Assembly: GCA_024220525.1 (NCBI GenBank)
Contig: JAMYWO010000192.1
Coordinates: 1 to 51,530 of the forward strand
DNA length: 51,530 nucleotides
Direction: 5' to 3'
Source: Cochliopodium minus
Lineage: Eukaryota > Discosea > Himatismenida > Cochliopodiidae
A model generated the notes under the pieces. It did not search any database, was not told the origin of the DNA, and saw only the letters and a list, made by a program, of their open reading frames with translations. Below are positions 20,191-40,236 of the stretch, one piece after another. The position numbers and the translations under genes are program-made. Within the stretch, counting starts at the first letter, position 1. Each line of letters starts with the position of its first letter.

Positions 20191-21946
20191 TTAATGATGA
20201 TTTCTATCAGGGAAATGAGAGAGGATGATATCATAAGTGTTTTGCCATACGGTAGCAGATTCAGCAAAGCTGAACAAAGCACCAGCCCAGTAAGTGTTTC
20301 TTTGACCTTGAAGTCTATCCAATCTAGTGTAGGGGGTTGGAGATTGAGACAAAACTTCATCAGAGAAGTGAGCTTGATAAAAATGTCTTTCAAAGTTTTT
20401 GAGAGTGTAGCTGGTAAAGTAAGCAGGAGGAAGTTTAGTCAAGAAACCATTCAAGTAACCCAACATGGTGCTATCAGAGATATCTTCTTCTGCATAAGCG
20501 AAACTGCAAGCAGGACCATAAGCAACTTCTCTTCTGATTGCCAAAATGTTAGGGAATGAAGGGATACCGTCAGCAGCCATAACATCAATACTTGCGACGT
20601 TGAAGGAGTCATTGGTGATAGGACCAGTGACATCCAATTCAAATCTGTAGTAGTAGTTTGCTTGTACGTGTTTGAAAATATCGATTTCGTCTTGGTGAAG
20701 ATCAAGGAACCCAAGATTATTCAACAATTGAGTTGAAGTAACCAAAATCTTTTTACAGTAGATCTTTTGGAATTCTCCATCTACGTTTGCTCCAATGTAT
20801 ACATATTTTGGGTTGGTTCTTTGAACACTCAAGATTTCAGTGTTCAACAAGATGTTCTTTTTTCCAATGTACTTTGTAATTCCTTGATAGATTTTATAGC
20901 ATCCTCCCTTTACTGCAAATCCAGCATTAGGATCGGAATAAATCTTGATGATACCAATTCTCAAGTTTTGGAGAGCATACAAGGTGCTGACATTGTGATA
21001 GTTTCCCATTCCTCCATAGTAGAGTAAAGGAAAGCTTAAAAAGAAATAAATTTTGAAATATTCAAAAAGAAAGAAATATTTACAAGAAGGTGGAGAGGAT
21101 TTGAAAGTTGTTATCAGAAATGAATTTTCCAAATGGTTCCAATAATTCTTCTGGAATTGGATCTGGAAATTTAACGTTGTCCAACCATGGGTATTTAGTT
21201 GCAAGCAAAGTTTGAAATCTAATCATTGCTATAAAAAAGAAAATATAATTGAATAATGCGCCAAAATAAAATAATAATAATTTTTTTCAATATAATCGTT
21301 ATTTTTACCTTCAATATATTCAGGGGAAGGAGGTGGACTTGGGATAACTCCGGTGGTGATATTGTGATTGAAATCAAATCCATAATTGGTCAAAAGTCCT
21401 TGATATCCAATGGTGGAATCTTTTGGGAGAAATCTTTGTGCGAATTGTCTACTTCCCAAAGTCCAATGTCCGATACCAGAAATGTTTTCATATTCAGTAT
21501 CAGGAAATACAACAACCCCAAGATCTTGAGAATAAATATTATGCGTTTAAAATATTTTATTCAGGAGAAATAAAATTAAAGATTTAATTTTTTTTTCCAT
21601 CTTTAAAGAATTGAATAAAAAAAATAGATATATTCTTACCGACCCAGTTTCTATCACCATGGTGTGGTGGATCAAAATAAGAGGTTGTGCAATGTCCTCC
21701 GACAACGCTTTTCTTTTCGAGTACAAGGACATCATATCCTCTATCTTTCAAAAATACTGATGCACTCATTCCTGAAGCTCCAGCACCTTTTCGGGATGGG
21801 AAAAAGGATTGGAGTGGTTAAATAAAAAAGAAATTCAAAAAAATAATTCCTTAATTCTTACCTATAATACAAACATCTCTAATCATTAAAGCAGATTGAA
21901 TGAAGATTGCAAAAATCAAAGCGATAGCAATGATATTTTTTCTCAT
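20191..21946 (-). CDS. Secreted FAD-dependent amine-oxidase-like protein, paralogue 1
   Basis: Five exons: 21862-21946, 21640-21786, 21309-21524, 21084-21228 and 20191-21034; about 478 residues. It begins with a signal peptide (KNIIAIALIFAIFIQSAL), then DVCIIGAGASGMSASVFL, the GxGxxG dinucleotide-binding motif, and VLVLEKKSVVGGHC, the FAD ribose-binding acid plus GG doublet. YYGGMGNYHNV, GGCYKIYQGITKYIG and a C-terminal YWAGALFSFAES (second FAD contact) follow. The family is flavin amine oxidases, close to fungal beta-cyclopiazonate-dehydrogenase-like proteins. It oxidises a small amine or related molecule in the secretory pathway or outside the cell; the substrate is unknown. It lies in tandem with the next gene, same strand, 413 nt apart, and shares exon 5 length exactly (844 nt). 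Confidence 0.87.
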
Positions 21947-22359: not shown

Positions 22360-24075
22360 TTACTTTTTAAAAGGGAAATGAGTATTGATCAAATCAAAAG
22401 TTTTTTCCCATACAGAAACAGTTTCAGCAAAACTGAATAAAGCACCAGTCCAGTAAGTATTTTTGTTACCTTGCAAGTTGTTCAAAAGAGTATAAGGAGT
22501 TGGAGAACTTGCCAAAGTGGTGGAATTAAAATGAGCTTGATAGTAATGTTTGCTGGTTTTAACGATAGAAGCACGAGTCAAAATAGCAGAAGGAATAAGT
22601 TTTAACTGAGAATCAACAACATTGTACATATGTGCTTCAGAATCGTCGTTGAGGGAATAAGAATAGACAGCTGCAGGTCCATAAGTCATTGGTCTTTTGA
22701 GAACAAGAATGGATGGGAAAGGTGGGATTTTATCAGCTGCCAATGCATTTACGTTGGCCAAATTGAAAGAGCTATCAGCCATTGGACCTTGGACATCAAT
22801 GAGCATTGTGTAGTAATGGTTAGCTTCAACTTTGGAAAAGATGGAGGTCTCTTCTTCGTCTAAATCAAGAAAATCCATTTTATCAAGCAATTGGGGGAAT
22901 GAAACAATCAATTTTCCACATGTTACTTGGTTGATTTTATTTTTAGATCCTCCTTCTCTATAGTTTATTCTTACCTCGGAGTTTCTTCTTCTAATCCCAA
23001 GTATTTCAGTTTCCAAAATGATATTCTTTTTTCCAAGGTAACGAGCCATTCCTTCATAAATGGAGTGGCAGCCATTCTTGACGTAAAATCCTGCAGCTGG
23101 TGTACTAAACATGGCGGTTACTCCTCTTCTCAAATTTTGTAAAGCAAACAATGCAGTTACATTACGATGATTACCCATTCCTCCATAGAAGAGAATAGGA
23201 TAGCTTTTATATCAATGAGGAAATTAGAAGAAAAATTAATAATAAAAAAAAAAGGAAATTTTACAACAAAGGTGCTTCGAGAGGACCAAGATTATTATTA
23301 GCAATAAAATCGGATAATGGCAACAATAATTCTTGTGGGATTGGATCTGGTATATCTGCATTTTCTATCCATGGATATCTGGTAGCGAGGATAGTTTGCA
23401 AATTGATATAAGCTGCAATATATTCAGGTGTTGTAGGTCCTGAAGGAAGAGGCAAATTGTTCCCAATAGGAATTTGATTGGTGAAATCGAATGCATAATT
23501 AGATGCAGGTACCCCTATTTAAAAAATAAAAAAGAAATTTGCAACAAAAGAAAGAAATTTTACTGCTGAAATTCAAATAATTGATGGTTCCTGGAGCAAA
23601 TCTTTCTGCAAATTTTCTGCTATCCAATGACCATGATCCAATCCCAGTGTTATTATCATATCCAGAATCTGGAAAGATTTGTACACCCCAATCTATTTAT
23701 TTATCAAAGAATTAAAAATAAATATAAAATTCAATTTTATAATTTGAAGAATCTTTATAATTAATCCCACCTAACCAATCGATTGGTTCATGAGAATGAA
23801 ATCTTTCTGTATGACAATGTCCTCCAAATCTATCTTCCTTCTCAAGAATTAAAACATCATATCCTCTATCATCCAAGAATGTGGCTGCTGACATTCCTGA
23901 TGCTCCAGCCCCTATAAGATAGAAGAAATTGTGTAAATTATAAAACCTTTCGAAAATAATTTTCATGAAACTTACCCAAAATACAAACATCATGATCCAA
24001 ATATGATTTCTTTCCAAGATTACTTTTTGAAAATACAAGTGCTAAAAATAAAAACAAACAGATAAAAGCTCTCAT
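22360..24075 (-). CDS. Secreted FAD-dependent amine-oxidase-like protein, paralogue 2
   Basis: Five exons: 23976-24075, 23771-23911, 23564-23692, 23265-23514 and 22360-23203; about 487 residues. The signal peptide FICLFLFLALVFS precedes DVCILGAGASGMSAATFL (FAD/NAD-binding GxGxxG) and VLILEKEDRFGGHCHTE. YGGMGNHRNVTALFALQNLR, NGCHSIYEGMARYLG and TGALFSFAETVSVWE match paralogue 1 almost position for position, so the pair arose by tandem duplication. The divergence in sequence shows it is not recent. One intron differs in position: this gene is cut after NYLNFS, whereas paralogue 1 is cut further on, after PEYIE. No active-site cysteine or covalent FAD motif is obvious. The same function class applies, with substrate unknown. 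Confidence 0.87.
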
Positions 24076-24624: not shown

Positions 24625-27289
24625 ATGGAATTTGCTTATGAGAAAGTGAAAGAAAGATTAAATAATGATGGTGAGCTTTTTTTTTTTGAAGATATGATTT
24701 GAAATAATAAAGTATTAAACAAAATTAACAACAAATAATCTTCTCTTTGCAATATAAAGCACCAGCAGAGAAAAAAATTGAAAATAATGGTTTGGAAACA
24801 TTAAAAGAGTTATTAAACAATGAACAAGGAGAGGTTGTAAGATTATCCATAGAAAGAATAGGAGATCTATGCAGAATGGAAGAAAATAGAAGTGTAGTAG
24901 GTCAATCTGGAGTAATTGAGCTTATGTCTCAACAATTATTGAATGAAAAAAAATCTAAAGAAGAAAAAGATGAATTGTTACAATGGATTGCACGTGCATT
25001 TGCCAATTTGTCATTTGATCATGATGAAAACAGAAAGAGAATATCAGAGCTAAATATGCTACCTTTATTGATAAGTGGATTAGAAGCTAAAAATAATGAT
25101 AACCTAGTAAGAAATTGTTCTGGATGTATTGCCAATTTGTCATCTCAAACGGGTATTAAAAAAAAAAGAAAAAAATATAAAAAATTTTATTTATCAACAA
25201 AGATTAATGAATTTATTATTTTGGATGAAAGAATTATATTTCACATTATAATCATATTTGATCACATAATATCTCATTTCTTTAATGTCAAAATGATGAA
25301 ATTTTTTTTAATAATTGAAATTTCATTCTCTTTTAAAATGAATAAGAGGCCATACAACAAAAAGTGAGAGAATTGGGAGGGATAGAAAAATTGGTGTCAG
25401 TTTTGTCCAACCAAAACGACATGGTTCTAGGGCTCACCCTCAGAGCGATCTGCAACCTCTCCGATGACGTTGAGAACAGAAAGGAGGTGTGGAAAAGCGA
25501 GGGGCTCGAAAAGATCATCAACATCCTCAAAGTTAACGAGAACGAAAATGTTTTAAGCGAATGTATCACCACTTTGTCTGCTTTGTCTACTGATGACTTT
25601 CTTTGCATTAAAATGATTGAACACAAAATTGTTGACGTAATCATTGAGAAGATTTCTTCGGAGGACAAGGATCTTGTGGAGAGGAATAAGAGCATCGTTC
25701 AGCTTTTGGTTTCTTTTTCTGAGAAGGACTTTGTTGCTGATCATTTTTTGAAGTTGGGTGTTTTGGATCTTTTTGTCGAGAAGATGAGAGATGAACATCT
25801 TTTTGTTGAAATCAAAGAACAATTTTCAAAGTGTGTTTCTCTCATGGGTAACAAACTAAATAAATTTTTTTATTNNNNNNNNNNNNNNNNNNNNNNNNNN
25901 NNNNNNNNNNNNNNNNNNNNNNNNNNNNNNNNNNNNNNNNNNNNNNNNNNNNNNNNNNNNNNNNNNNNNNNNNNTTTTTTTATTTCATTTTTTACCATTT
26001 TTTATATTTTATTTTTGAATATTAGCTTTGAATGATAAATGTGTGGAGAAATTGTATGAAAGTATCGATTTTTTTATCAAGAACACAAAGAAAGATGTAA
26101 ACGAAGAGGGTATTCGTGTAGCCAGTCTCATGGTGGTTGGAAACTGTGCAAGAAAAGATGAAAATTGCAAAGACTTGATCGAAAAATACGAAATTTTGAA
26201 TTTTTTGAAAGATTTGGTATTAGAAGAAGGTAATCACATTACAAAATGAATCATATTATTAATTTTGTTTTTTTCTTACTTTTTTTTTTTAAAAATTTTT
26301 TAGGTGCTTCACAAATTCAACATTTGGCTATTGGTGCTTTGAACAACTTGTCCATTCCTTTGGATAATAGAAAGACAATTGTAAAGAGTGGGTATTTGGC
26401 TTATCTCTTGCAAGTAATCCAACAAAAAGAAAAGAGAAATGCTCATGTCTTGTTTGGAGCTGGTATAAAAATTTTAATATGTTTAAAAATCTTATTACTC
26501 AAATATTATTATTTTTATTTTTATTTTTTATTATTTTATAATTTTCAAAATTTTTATCTTTATTATTTTATTATTTTTATTAATTTTTTTTTTTTTTTAA
26601 TAGTAATCACACTCAAAAGAATATGTTCACACGAAAAGGATGCAGAATTCCGCAAGCAATTTGTTTTCGAAGAAAAAGGAGTGGAGATTTTGATGACAAT
26701 AAAAGAAGGGCTGGCAATGAGCGAACACGCACGTATCTGGTTCGAAGTGGGAAGATTCCTCTCCATCCTCATCCGTTCTGACGAAGATATCATGCTTTCC
26801 GTATTGAAACACGAGGATTCTGTTGATTGTTTGTTTTCTTTGGTAGAAGCAGAGTGGTCTGTTTTGAATACTGAAGGTTTTGCTGCTTTGGTTAAGGTAT
26901 TTTTTTTATTTTAAATTTTTCTTCAAATTTTTAAAATTATTTCTTCTAATTATTTTAATAAATTTTAATTTTCCTCAAAGATTTGTAAATCAAGTGACAA
27001 CAACGAAGTGGGCAAATTGATCAACAAGGAGGAATACATCGACAAGGTTATCTCCAAACTCAACGATCCTAAAGATCCTAACGTGGAGCTCCAAGGAGTG
27101 ATGTTTCTCGAATCTCTCGTAGTCCATCCTCATTTCCATCAATATCTCCCCAAAATTAAATCTGCCTTCCAACAAATGATCTCTCAAATCAAATTAAAGT
27201 ATACTGAGACTGAAATCCAACCTCATTTAACTGCTATTGCTTATTCTCAAAAATTGCTTGACTCTGATTTGTTCAAGAATGTCAATTAA
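24625..27289 (+). CDS. Armadillo-repeat smgGDS (RAP1GDS1/darlin) homologue
   Basis: Seven exons: 24625-24670, 24760-25152, 25347-25847, 26026-26229, 26304-26462, 26604-26896 and 26981-27289; about 634 residues, close to animal RAP1GDS1 (about 600). Armadillo-type helices repeat throughout, for example LLQWIARAFANLSFD, NCSGCIANLSS, GLTLRAICNLSDD, LAIGALNNLSIP. The family chaperones and promotes nucleotide exchange on prenylated Rho, Rap and Ras GTPases; the Dictyostelium member is darlin. It sits in the cytosol. The 100-N gap lies in the third intron (25848-26025); the flanking exons join in phase, but an exon could be hidden there. Codon choice changes sharply: exon 24760-25152 uses A/T-ending codons, exon 25347-25847 many CTC, ATC and GAG. 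Confidence 0.88.
25875..25974. other. 100-N scaffold gap
   Basis: Exactly 100 N, the conventional length for a gap of unknown size, flanked by T-runs inside an intron. The true length and content are unknown. Confidence 0.99.
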
Positions 27290-29787: not shown

Positions 29788-32587
29788 TTAAATAATTTCT
29801 TCTAATTTCTCAATTTCAAAGTTAATTTTCCCGTTTTGTTGAAAAAATAAATCGTGTTGGAATTTCTCCAGGGGAAGGGAATCATAGTTAATTAATTGTG
29901 GGAATTTTTGAGAAGTTTTAAAAGGATATATCATTTCCCAATCTCCTTTCAGAGAATCTTCCAAAATCAATTTATCAACCAAGCTGAATGTTTCTGGAGA
30001 TTTGCTGTGTTCAAAATTTTTTTTTTTAGTCTCAATCAACCCAACCATCCCCAAAAAATCATTCAGCATTTTTTCTTTGTCAATTAATTCAAATTTCGTT
30101 TGAAACCCAAGAGAAGGAGTAACTAGAAAAAATTTTTGGTTCAAAAAATTTTAAAGAAAAATGTTAAAAAAAAATATATTGAATAAAAAATTTACCCTTT
30201 TTATTGAATTATTTGCAAAAATTTTAAAACTTTTAATTTTTAAAATTTTTTTTTACGTTACTTTCAATGATGTAAAGATGATCATTAGAATCCATATCGA
30301 TATCAACACCTAAAATATTAAAAAAATTTTGGTTGTTCAAGGAGGGGTTTTCTTTGATTTTGTGAATGATTTCGTGGTGTACTGACATCACCGTTTTTCT
30401 TGCCACTCTCTTTATTTTCCTCCACAATTCTTCATAATCTTTGTTTTCTTCCTCTTCCCAATATTTTTTAAATCCCCTCAAATTCCATCTAGTTCCTATT
30501 TAATAATTTGTTTACTCTTTTATTTATTTTTTATTTTTTTATTTATTTTTTATTTTTTATTTTTTTATTTATTTTTATTATTTTTCACAATAATAATAAT
30601 TATTTTTTATTGAAATTTATTTTTTATTGTTAATTTTGTTTTTCTACTATTCATTTTTTCACTTTAATATTTAATATTTTTTTTTTTTATACCAGTACAA
30701 TAAGGATTTAATTTGGAAGTATCACTTTCATCAAAAAGAATGGAACAAGGAGCAGAAGAATTCCCTTTTTAAAATTTATTATTTTATTATTCAAATTTTT
30801 TTTATTTTTTAGTTTATTTTTTTTATTTTTTAATTTATTTTTTAAATTTTTTTAAAGAATTTTTAATATTTTATTTCATTTTATTTTATTTCGTTACCTT
30901 CTTTTTCAGGATCAAAGTCACTGTGGTGAATGTTACCATCATGATAGGCAGCTTGATTGATGATGTGTTTGTGTTTGTCTTTTTCGTTTTTAGCGGAGAA
31001 ATCTTTTTCAGAAAAATCAATGGTCGTAAATTTTATAATCCCCTCCCTGTACAAATATACTCTCAATGGATCAACTGAAGTAATCAGCATGTATCTTTGC
31101 AAAAAAAAAAGGTATTTTAATTTTTTACATCAAAATTTTTTATTCATTATTTTAACATTTTATTATTTTAATTTTTTAATATTTCTTTTAAATACGATAT
31201 TTTTAAAAATTTTTTTGAAAATTAATAAATTTAATTAAATTGTTTAATTTTTTTTTTTACAAATTTTTTTACTCTTTTGTTATTAATTTTTTTTTGATAT
31301 TTTTAAAATTTTACATACTTTTTATTTTTTTAACAATTTTTTTAAATTTGATGAAAGTTCATTTTTTATTTCTATTTTGTTAAACGTTTACATTTTTTTA
31401 TAATTTTAATTTTTTATTTTTTATAATTTGATTTTTTAAATGATAAAAAAGTTTTATTTTTTCAAAATTTATTTTTACAATCTGAAAGTGAACTTTCTTT
31501 GGTGAATGAGTTTGGGAAGGGGAATGTATTGTTGAATGAGAAAATTGGAATTGTTTTTAAATTCTTGAAACTGAAGGAGAGATTCCAACAAAACGATTCC
31601 CTCGCCCCTCCCTCCATACACATCTTTTGCCAAATATTTTTTATCCTCGCTCTTTTCGTAATCTCTTTCCAATTTTTCATAATCATCTTTCAATAAAAAA
31701 ATATAAAAAATAAAAAATAAAAAATAAAATAAAAATAAAAAATAAAAAATAATGATAATAAAAAATAAAAAATAAAAAATAAAAAAATAAAAAATAATAA
31801 AATATCAATCAATTTAAATTTATTTAAAATCCTTTTGATTTTTAGATTTTATTTAATTTTTATGTTATTTTTTGATCATATTTTTTTACCAGGCATGACA
31901 TAAGTGTTGGGATGAAAGTCAAAGTGTTGAGGGTAAAAAGATTGAGCTCTCATGTAATTTTTGGCAAAGTTGGATTTCACGTTGAGAGACTGAGCCAAGT
32001 AAGGTATTCTGTTCACTTTTTTGTTTCCATTCATCAATTTCTCAAACTCTGTTATTGGAAAATCATTTTTCTCTATATCAGGCAATCCTATTCAAAAATT
32101 TAATTTTTAATTTTTTTTTTGTTTTCATTTTTTTGTTTTTTAAAAAAATTTTAATTTTTATTTATTTATTGTTTTTTTTTTTTTTTTTACTTATTTCCAA
32201 CCAAAGAAAATCGAAATCTTGGGATCTGCTTCTTCTCCATCTATTTTTTTCAAGAATATGTTCTATTGGCCTTTTTGAAAAATGAAGTTAAAAAAAAAAA
32301 ATTTTTTTTGAAATAAATTAGTTTGCTACCTTGATCTGTTTTGAAAAAAGAATTCAATATGGGAGTCTTATTTTATTTCACTAAAATTCATTTTACCCCA
32401 TCTCATATGTCCTTTTTTCATCTTTGGTACATTTTCTCAGTCGATTTGTTTCTCTATCAAAAAATCTGCATTCCTTGGTAGCAAATTCATCCATTGTTTC
32501 TCCATCAAATTTGGATATGGTTTTATAAGTCTTACAATGAATCATAATAATAAATACAAAGAAAAATAAAAGAAGAATGCCTTTCAT
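29788..32587 (-). CDS. TTL-family (tubulin-tyrosine-ligase-like) enzyme with signal peptide
   Basis: Ten exons: 32397-32587, 32330-32335 (6 nt), 32191-32270, 31890-32087, 31479-31686, 30898-31094, 30693-30764, 30257-30495, 30196 (1 nt) and 29788-30122; about 508 residues. Residues 1-18 (KGILLLFFFVFIIMIHC) are a signal peptide or anchor. TTL motifs follow: DFDFLWLE, NTYVMPDDYE, YLAKDVYGGRGEGI (ATP-binding Lys and glycine loop), FLIQQYI, RKFTFRLYMLIT, DPLRVYLYREG, GVDIDMDSND and YIIESNVTPSL, in which Glu and Asn397 bind metal. TTL enzymes ligate Tyr, Glu or Gly to proteins, mostly tubulin. A secretory signal means that this one probably faces the ER lumen and cannot act on cytosolic tubulin if fully translocated. 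The 1-nt exon is needed to make N-V-T-P-S-L in frame. Confidence 0.88.
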
Positions 32588-34834: not shown

Positions 34835-37800
34835 ATGAAGAAAAAAGAAGAGGAGAAAGAAAAGAAGATATTTGATTATGTGATGGTTGTAGGAAAAGAA
34901 AATGGTTTAATATTTTTTTTCCTTTCAAATTTTTTCCTTCATTTACATTATATTCAATAAATAGCAAAAATAGAGATCACATATCGTTATCCTCCCATAT
35001 CAACTGAGAAAAAAGATCCAATGGCTCAAAATATAATGCAATTTTGTTTTCCAGAAGGAGAAGGGGTTGAAATTGTTCAAAAAGTGTAAAATGAAACAAA
35101 AAATAAACATTTTTGCCAAAAAAATCATTAATCTCCCCAAAATAAAAATGATTTTATGTGAATCAATAACATATCAAACAGGGAGATTAATAAAAATTCT
35201 TAAATTTTGCTTTCTTCTAAAAAATATTTATAAATTAAGGGAGGTAGAAACATTCTCCTTTGTATTGACTGAACAAACAGGAGAAAAGAGATATGGTTAT
35301 TGTAGAAGATTTTTTGGCAAAAAATCAGAATGTTATTGCATAGTCAGTTTCTTGTAATATTTCTTGAAAATATAAACATAATAATTTAATTGCTTCATTT
35401 TTCAATTTTTCACAGTCCATCCTTTGAATTATTCTCCAAAATATTGGATATAGTGGAGGAGAGAAGAAAGGTGAATAGAACATCTGTCTTTTCTTTTTTG
35501 CAAACCATGTTGGCAAAGCCTTTTCCAGAGCCTGGTGTAAAAACATCCAAATAATTCAATTAATCATAAAAAAAGAGAGTTAATTTAAGAGGAGATATAA
35601 TCTTTCAAATGAAAATGAATTTATATCCATAAAACAAAATTGAATTAATATAGCTTTGAAATTTCTATTTATCACTAAAATTAATTTTTTGATTTAATTT
35701 AATTCAATTAATCAATATTTAAATTAAATCAATATTTAAATTTTAATTTTAATTTTAAATCAATTGTTTAATAGGAAACAATAGAAGTGAAAACATTCGG
35801 GACGAAAGGAGGACAAGACACATATGAGTTGACATACCCTCTTGTGCAGAAAATATCGCTCAACTATGTTGATTATCAATTGCTCATGAATATTTTATCT
35901 GTAAATACTATATTAGGTAAAAAAAAAAACTTTGAAAATGAAATAAAAAATTTATTCAGTTTACTCATTAGATATTTTTAATATTCCAATATTGGAAGAT
36001 TATTTTTTATTTTATTTTTATTTTTATTTTAGATTTTATTTTAAAATTAGATTTTATTTCTTTTATATTTATTATTTTTATATTTTTTATTTTTTATTCA
36101 TTTTTATTTTAGATTATTTTAATTTTATATTTATTTTTTTTTCATTTATTTATTTTTATTATATTTATTTTTATTATATTTATTTTTTCTTTTTGAATAA
36201 AAGAAATGTTCAAGAGTATTTTGATAGAGAGACGTATTATAATAGTATCTGCATCTCTTTCGAAACTTTCCAACTGTGTGGCTTCCTTCAACAGTCTCAC
36301 TTTCCCCTTCACCTGGCATCACATCTACATCCCCGTTCTTCCTGTCTCCCTCATCGACTACTGCACTGCTCCCATGCCTTTTTGTGTTGGCATGTTGAAA
36401 GGTAGATTAGAGATTTTAAATAAAAAAAATAAAAATGAAAATAAAAAATAAATATAAAATATAAAAAATTAATAAATAAAAATAAAAATATAAATAAAAA
36501 TAGACAATAATAAATAAAAAATAAAAAATAAAAAATAAAAATAAAAATAAAAATAAATATAATAAATTAATATAAAATATAAAAAATTAATAAATAAAAA
36601 TAAAAATAAAAATATAAATAAAAATATACAAAAATAAATAAGATAAAGTAATAATAAAGAAATATGATAAAGTAATAAATAAAGAAATATGAATTCAATC
36701 AAAATTAATAAAAAAAATTTAAAAATACAAAAAAATTTCAATAAAATAAATTTTAAAAAAGAAATGAAAATTTAAATAAAATAAAGAACAAATATAATAA
36801 AATAATTTTATATTTAATAAATAATTTCTTGATTATTTATTGAAAATAAACAAAAAGTTATTATTATTATTATAATTATTATTATTATTCAATTTTTTTT
36901 ATTAGTTCATCTTTGTATATTGGAAAAGATGCCATTGGAAGAAGTGGTTGTGTTAGATTTAGACGAGGACTGTTTCTTGGCAAAGCCAGCTAAATTCGTG
37001 ATACCTTACTCCCTCGAATCCCAACTTAAACGCAATTTGAAATCTCTCAAAAAACTTGGTAATTACAACTTTCTAATTTTTTATTTTTATTTTTATTTTT
37101 TATTATTTTGAGCAATAAATTTTTTTATTTTTAAATTTTAATTTTCTTTTCTTTCATTGTATCTTATGTTTATTTTTCATTTTTCATTTTTATTTTAAAT
37201 TATAATCGTAAAAATTTTTATTTTTATTTTTATTTTTGAATGTTATTTTTTTACACTTTAAAAAGTTTTTATTTTTATTTAATATTAACCATTTTTTTGA
37301 AATTTTTAAAAGTGTTTTTAATATTAATAGTTTTTTAGAATTAATAGTTTTTATTTTGGTTTTTATGTTTCTAATATTATTGGTTGTTTTTTGAAATTTT
37401 TATTTTAAATATTTATTCACTTCATTTTAATTTAAATATTTATTTACTTTATTTTATTTATTTAAATATTTATTTACTTCTTTTTAATTTAAATATTTAT
37501 TTTTTTACTGTTTAAATATTTTTTTGTTTTTTTTTTCCCAGGCCCAAATTATTTTAAGGATCCACAAACACAATTATCGAGGCAAATAGACAAGGAAAAG
37601 GGATACGAAATGATTTTTTCTTCGATTTTTCAACAGTTTTTTTTTTCCGTGTTTACTGGTTATGAACGTCATTTCGGAACCAAATGTAGATTTGATCCTC
37701 TCAATTTCGCAGAAACAAAAGATCAACAAACCAAAAAAGTAAAACAAAAAAAAAAAATTATTTTTTATTTTTTATTTTTTATTTTTTATTTTTTATTTTT

Positions 37801-40068: not shown

Positions 40069-40236
40069 NATTTTTATTTTTATTTTTATTTTTATTTTTA
40101 TTTTTATTTTTATTTTTATTTTTATTTTTATTATTTTTTATTTTTTTATTTTATTTTTATTTTTATTTTTATTTTTATTATTTTTTATTTTTTTATTTTA
40201 TTTATATTTATTTTTTTATATTTATTTTTTTATTAC
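40069..40236. repeat. Ambiguous base followed by (TTTTTA)n tract
   Basis: An isolated N at 40069, then about ten 6-nt units and irregular T-rich sequence. It separates the P4-ATPase exon from the last CLU exon and is a probable assembly join. Confidence 0.85.

Follow-up and report, generated by a model that had tools for sequence, protein, structure and literature searches.

Can a single nucleotide serve as an exon of its own in a nuclear gene of a protist? The question is raised by a gene of the tubulin tyrosine ligase-like (TTL/TTLL) family on the minus strand of the window, by which we mean the whole 51,530-nt stretch of DNA that was analysed, part of contig C192 of the Cochliopodium minus assembly (44.65 Mb in 598 contigs), with intron-rich, evidently eukaryotic genes and a base composition of 24.7% G+C and about 75% A+T. 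Up to the end of exon 7, the exons of this gene join in consistent phase through canonical GT-AG introns, and exon 7 itself closes in phase 0 after GAA AGT AAC (E-S-N), which leaves the last exon (TT ACT CCT TCT CTT, from 30122) one base short. On the minus strand, with slashes at the splice sites, the junction reads GAA AGT AAC/GTAAAA, AAAAAG/G/GTAAAT, then TTTTCTAG/TT ACT CCT TCT CTT. One base, G30196, can be read directly between a canonical AG acceptor (30198-30197) and a canonical GT donor (30195-30194), the whole of AAAAAG/G/GTAAAT spanning 30202-30190, and the interval between exon 7 and the last exon is 134 nt. We consider a 1-nt exon at G30196, spliced between introns 7a and 7b (Table 1), to be the best-supported reading of this junction, with a probability of roughly 0.7.

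Joining 30257 directly to 30122 shifts the frame and brings a stop 12 residues past the Asn (N-LLLLLGFKRNLN-stop), and if the intron is retained translation stops after ESNVKKNFKN. Once the 1-nt exon is included, the joined gene has 506 stop-free codons; any base would be tolerated at 30196, since an NTT codon is always sense. The two flanking introns would be ordinary in length, as introns of at most 60 nt make up 24% and those of at most 73 nt 41% of the 258 confident ones, and both flanking acceptors score near the median of confident sites. A sequence-only reading of the locus had described the phase-0 end after ESN with one base missing at 30122, the AG, single G and GTAAAT back to back at 30194-30198, the introns of 60 and 73 nt as normal for this DNA and the frame shift on direct joining, and all of these observations hold.

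Table 1. Features of the TTL/TTLL-family gene and its candidate 1-nt exon (positions in the window)
Feature	Positions	Strand	Basis or remark
TTL/TTLL-family gene (Pfam PF03133)	29788..32587	minus	506-aa reading including the candidate 1-nt exon
Exon 1 (ATG assumed)	32397..32587	minus	outside Pfam and TTLL6/TTLL7 homology matches
Exon 2	32191..32270	minus	gene finder and joined reading frame
Exon 3	31890..32087	minus	gene finder and joined reading frame
Exon 4, carries K and GRGEGI loop	31479..31686	minus	gene finder, frame, TTLL6/TTLL7 alignment
Exon 5	30898..31094	minus	end G/GTAACG, a predicted use of a GTAACG donor
Exon 6	30693..30764	minus	gene finder and joined reading frame
Exon 7	30257..30495	minus	ends in phase 0 after GAA AGT AAC (E-S-N)
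Intron 7a, 60 nt, GTAAAA...AAAAAG	30197..30256	minus	donor 65th, acceptor 54th percentile of confident sites
Candidate 1-nt exon, a G that opens a GTT (Val) codon	30196..30196	minus	gene finder, enumeration
Intron 7b, 73 nt, GTAAAT...TCTAG	30123..30195	minus	donor 64th percentile in place, acceptor 52nd
Last exon, TT ACT CCT TCT CTT...	29788..30122	minus	110 open codons until the stop
Rival canonical donor GTAACG, starts 30261	30256..30261	minus	in frame with 30122, giving E-I-T-P-S-L; 12th percentile

The ATG at 32587 is an assumed start, and exons 1 and 2 are the least certain stretch of the gene. The gene finder fused the exon 1 region to the upstream gene and placed an extra 6-nt exon in the early part of the TTL gene (CAG/ATCAAG/GTAGCA, 32335-32330, minus strand), an unsupported prediction that leaves the frame unaffected.

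Gene finder and intron sample

The gene finder was a simple gene-structure HMM whose training set, 195,225 bases from this genome, comprised the window, 12 of 20 10-kb stretches (the other eight were mostly masked and were omitted) and nine further loci. It allows exons of any length and assumes GT-AG introns, so that other termini lie outside the intron sample. Its output held 108 genes with 410 internal introns, 258 of which were taken as confident (both flanking exons at least 40 nt, gene score above 40, no N), a rule that excludes the two introns at 30196. Among the confident introns the most frequent donors are GTAAAA (78) and GTAAAT (31) and the most frequent acceptors TAG (115) and AAG (109), and lengths centre on a median of 91 nt, with 49 nt at the 5th percentile. 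Exons most often end in G (134 introns), less often in A (58) or T (51) and rarely in C (15), the base that stands before donor 30256. No clear branch-point motif emerged from the intron sample, in which T-rich words top the list and TTGAA, TCTAA and CTAAT are weakly in excess.

The HMM decoded 30495-30257, 30196 and 30122-29788 unprompted. Its margin for the 1-nt exon is small, at 3.8 bits against the donor at 30261 and 0.9 bits against a frame shift made free of its penalty, and its exon-length prior under-penalises tiny exons. G30196 is one of three internal 1-nt exons predicted in the 108 genes. Another, at position 1440 of locus L002 (a TTL paralogue on contig C131), is spurious, given that a plain intron at 1395-1507 ending in TTTGCAG can be drawn by hand and yields K-G-Q-G-W in frame; the third lies within a weak gene (L029), and a predicted 2-nt exon at 37478-37479 falls in a low-complexity model. 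Since the HMM yields false tiny exons elsewhere, its choice here is not taken as proof. When frame shifts were allowed at introns or within exons, none was placed at the 30196 site under either setting.

Canonical alternatives and the active-site motif

Around the site we enumerated 277 canonical one- and two-intron structures with introns of at least 36 nt. The downstream frame is reached by 11 of them, and E-x-N-x-x-P-S-L is retained in a single one, the 1-nt exon combined with donor 30256. The 1-nt exon is used in five of the 11, and exon 7 is kept whole (IIESNVTPSL) only with donor 30256. Nine other in-frame structures were set aside, as they use donors deeper in exon 7, with GVDIDMD wholly or partly gone, or cut into the last exon.

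The nearest rival is the donor GTAACG at 30261, which would define a single canonical 139-nt intron (30261-30123) and a protein reading IIEITPSL, in frame to its end and lacking the Asn. Such a product might be a TTL-like protein that is inactive or otherwise changed, or it might accompany the 1-nt-exon form as a second isoform. It is an economical explanation, being a canonical GT-AG intron that keeps the frame and requires nothing unusual, and it is not impossible, because the gene finder uses GTAACG as a donor elsewhere in this gene as well, at the end of exon 31094-30898. We nevertheless find it unlikely: the site scores at the 12th percentile of donors and the GTAAAA that lies five bases further downstream at the 65th, its use would cost 7.0 Pfam bits and a position conserved in the five paralogous loci found while the other active-site motifs look kept, and the AG/G/GT arrangement, seen in 3 of 258 introns, would be reduced to a coincidence. 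The sequence-only reading was right that this donor deletes the Asn; it had placed it four bases before 30256, and the correct distance is five. Its proposal of a 1-nt exon describes the only enumerated canonical structure in which frame and motif spacing are both intact, though a canonical in-frame donor at 30261 competes with it.

The protein evidence bears on the same choice. With the 1-nt exon the predicted protein scores 147.0 bits against PF03133 (curated cut-off 20.1), compared with 140.0 for the donor at 30261 and 133.1 for direct joining, and given the 1-nt exon the TTLL6 alignment runs gap-free through the junction into the last exon. The active-site motifs can be aligned with those of TTLL6 and TTLL7, the last of them, E-x-N-x-x-P, being dependent on the 1-nt exon; the TTLL7 chain (4ylr) has Gln in place of the motif Glu. 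The lysine and the GRGEGI, KFxxR and H-x-x-N stretches match TTLL6 and TTLL7 too, and this argues against a loss of the Asn, as the predicted product does not look like that of a decayed enzyme. The lysine and GRGEGI loop of exon 4 presumably serve in ATP binding, and the Glu and Asn of the last motif are taken here to be metal-ion binders at the end of the ATP-grasp active site.

The genome holds at least five paralogous TTL loci (the search gives a lower bound), and in all five found (contigs C28, C131, C221, C116 and C59) E-x-N-x-x-P stands at the same place, in the forms MEVNLSPSL, LLEVNNTPSL, LLEINFSPCL, VLEVNHVPSM and EVNTNPG. No intron separates the Asn from the next residue in these five loci. 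The spacing of Asn and Pro in N-V-T-P-S-L fits the family, as had been proposed, although the Val following the Asn, which had been counted as consensus, is no part of E-x-N-x-x-P. One scan each of a viral and a prokaryote collection confirmed no relatives, and none was expected there. Which splice sites are chosen here could determine whether the gene yields an active enzyme (with the 1-nt exon), a protein that stays in frame and lacks the catalytic Asn (donor 30261) or a truncated one (skipping).

Chance, base loss and noncanonical introns

How often would an acceptor and a donor flank one base by accident? AG-N-GT with at least 36 nt on each side occurs in 3 of the 258 confident introns, and in 2 of 258 if the donor must score no lower than GTAAAT; in sliding 134-nt intron windows the corresponding counts are 77 and 62 of 9073. 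Markov-simulated 134-nt introns contain AG-N-GT in 0.8% of cases under the pooled composition (0.09% with a good donor) and in 4.1% under the interval's own composition (0.35%). Taken together, the intron, window and Markov counts make the site a 0.1-1% event per intron, or up to 4% when a GT of any strength will do. The exact 13-mer AAAAAGGGTAAAT occurs 26 times in the assembly on both strands, part of the assembly reading N. One of the three sites in the confident introns, an AG/A/GTAAAA at 31273 (minus strand) within intron 31478-31095 of the same gene, is as good as the one at 30196, and its inclusion would break the frame; AG-N-GT sites therefore exist without being exons. Genome-wide, AAGNGTAAAW is found 2188 times and the reversed pattern, a control that does not preserve dinucleotides, 4810 times, which perhaps reflects avoidance of abutting splice sites.

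Another possibility is that a base was lost beside a splice site, through an assembly error or a recent mutation, from an ancestral AACG/GTAAAA or TAG/GTTACT, the gene then being mis-sequenced or broken. G is the most frequent last exon base (134 of 258 confident introns), and the hypothetical AACG/GTAAAA would score at the 90th percentile. Possible frame breaks number 9 in 94,189 exon bases and 384 introns under the stricter HMM setting and 17 in 94,282 under the looser one, so they may be not very rare. Because several of them fall within doubtful gene models, these counts set a ceiling on the number of assembly or mutation events. The explanation requires an indel to have struck one of roughly two positions in addition to a coincidence of about 1%, and the loss of a boundary base together with a chance AG/G/GT is much rarer than either by itself. 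In addition, the gene reads in frame with no interruption outside this junction, and the base would have gone from a GG pair, not from a long homopolymer. The genome yielded no further copy of the locus against which the junction could be compared, the six other matches covering the intron interval alone (query 240-356). Extrapolation from 410 introns in 195 kb puts the genome-wide number at tens of thousands, and the junction was picked out as an oddity by a reader seeking oddities; for these reasons base loss retains a small share of our belief, on a par with the donor at 30261.

The sequence would also permit, exactly, one noncanonical intron of 133 nt bounded by GT-TA (30256-30124) or TA-AG (30255-30123), with no exon at 30196. 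The mRNA would be identical (AAC-G-TT), so reads carrying the extra G could not by themselves distinguish such an intron from a 1-nt exon. To our knowledge GT-TA or TA-AG termini are almost unknown among spliceosomal introns, and here again AG/G/GT would be reduced to a coincidence. We regard this explanation as very improbable.

Proposed splicing route and origin

Recursive splice sites, or zero-length exons, are sites at which an acceptor abuts a donor; the first splice regenerates the donor, no base is left in the mRNA, and they are known from long introns. The 1-nt exon proposed here would be like them in that the first splice regenerates a donor, and unlike them in that one base is kept and the interval is 134 nt. 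We suppose that it is recognised by intron definition and spliced in two sequential, recursive-like steps. Removal of the 60-nt intron would join AAC to G/GTAAAT, creating the intact donor AACG/GTAAAT, which would then be spliced to the TCTAG acceptor; alternatively, the two steps would run in the opposite order. The junction AACG/GTAAAT scores at the 69th percentile of donors, which means that no weak site would be left for the second step. The product, AAC-G-TT-ACT, would restore E-S-N-V-T-P-S-L and leave the final 110 codons readable in frame. It seems unlikely that the two introns are excised from around a single base at the same moment, as has been argued for Arabidopsis APC11 (PMC4674806). 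As to its origin, an ancestral phase-1 intron, AACG/GTAAAA...TAG, may plausibly have lost its G, a fortuitous intronic AG/G/GT then supplying the missing base. For their AGGGT exon, the authors of the Fusarium CYP621A study propose the same route of a lost base and its rescue (PMC12940212).

Comparison with known single-nucleotide exons

The sequence-only reading had knowledge of a single Arabidopsis gene with such an exon, a view that is outdated, since plant VPS55 and Fusarium CYP621A are described as further cases. In Arabidopsis APC11, the exon is an A within a 422-nt interval that restores the frame, recursive removal under intron definition is proposed, and the exon was proven by a base swap in a minigene (Guo and Liu; PMC4674806). 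The present case shares with it the one base between AG and GT, the restored frame and the proposed recursive removal; it differs in that the plant example is experimental, and ours is a G in a 134-nt interval, inferred from sequence. For plants, VPS55 and APC11 are presented as having 1-nt microexons overlooked by annotation, with support from land-plant conservation and RNA-seq (PMC8831610), and the exon proposed here would likewise have been missed by annotation.

The junction closely resembles that of CYP621A, a P450 gene of Fusarium, in which an AG/G/GT 1-nt exon is backed by 20 orthologues and 18 SRA reads (PMC12940212). In both, AG/G/GT lies within a conserved protein motif and was detected through a phase mismatch, and the interval of 134 nt compares with 139 nt in F. 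graminearum CYP621A; unlike the fungal gene, with its orthologues and reads, and unlike the plant genes, ours is a candidate proposed from sequence. Placozoan mitochondrial cox1 is also reported to have a single-base exon, among trans-spliced introns (PMC5436844), and shares the 1-nt length; it is mitochondrial and not a spliceosomal nuclear gene.

Exons of one nucleotide are already known from plants and fungi, and the present case probably adds a nuclear gene of a protist. None was found for a protist nuclear gene among the matches listed from the open-access literature. We lean towards the view that this is a 1-nt exon spliced in two sequential steps, which would make it the first nuclear case known to us beyond plants and fungi. 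If this is true, 1-nt exons would reflect a wider capability of the spliceosome, not a peculiarity of plants and one fungal genus, and they would work in extremely AT-rich introns without a clear branch-point motif in the sample. In draft genomes of protists, an intron across which the frame is broken would then not automatically point to a pseudogene or to faulty assembly, and gene finders should be able to consider exons of one nucleotide.

Other observations in the window and training loci

Two neighbouring genes on the minus strand (20191-21946 and 22360-23894) encode similar proteins (GGMGNYHNVSTLYALQNLRIG and GGMGNHRNVTALFALQNLRRG, respectively) and by eye represent a tandem duplication. 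A run of 100 N at 25875-25974, inside a predicted gene that by eye is armadillo-like, is apparently a scaffold gap, and one further N stands at 40069 of the window. Among the training loci, a 3-nt exon, TCTTAG/GAG/GTAATT, was predicted at L027:7399-7401 with introns of 55 and 56 nt on either side. Its host gene has ankyrin repeats and, by eye, a sirtuin-like second half, the exon reads DG-E-TPLH, and a true microexon is plausible there.
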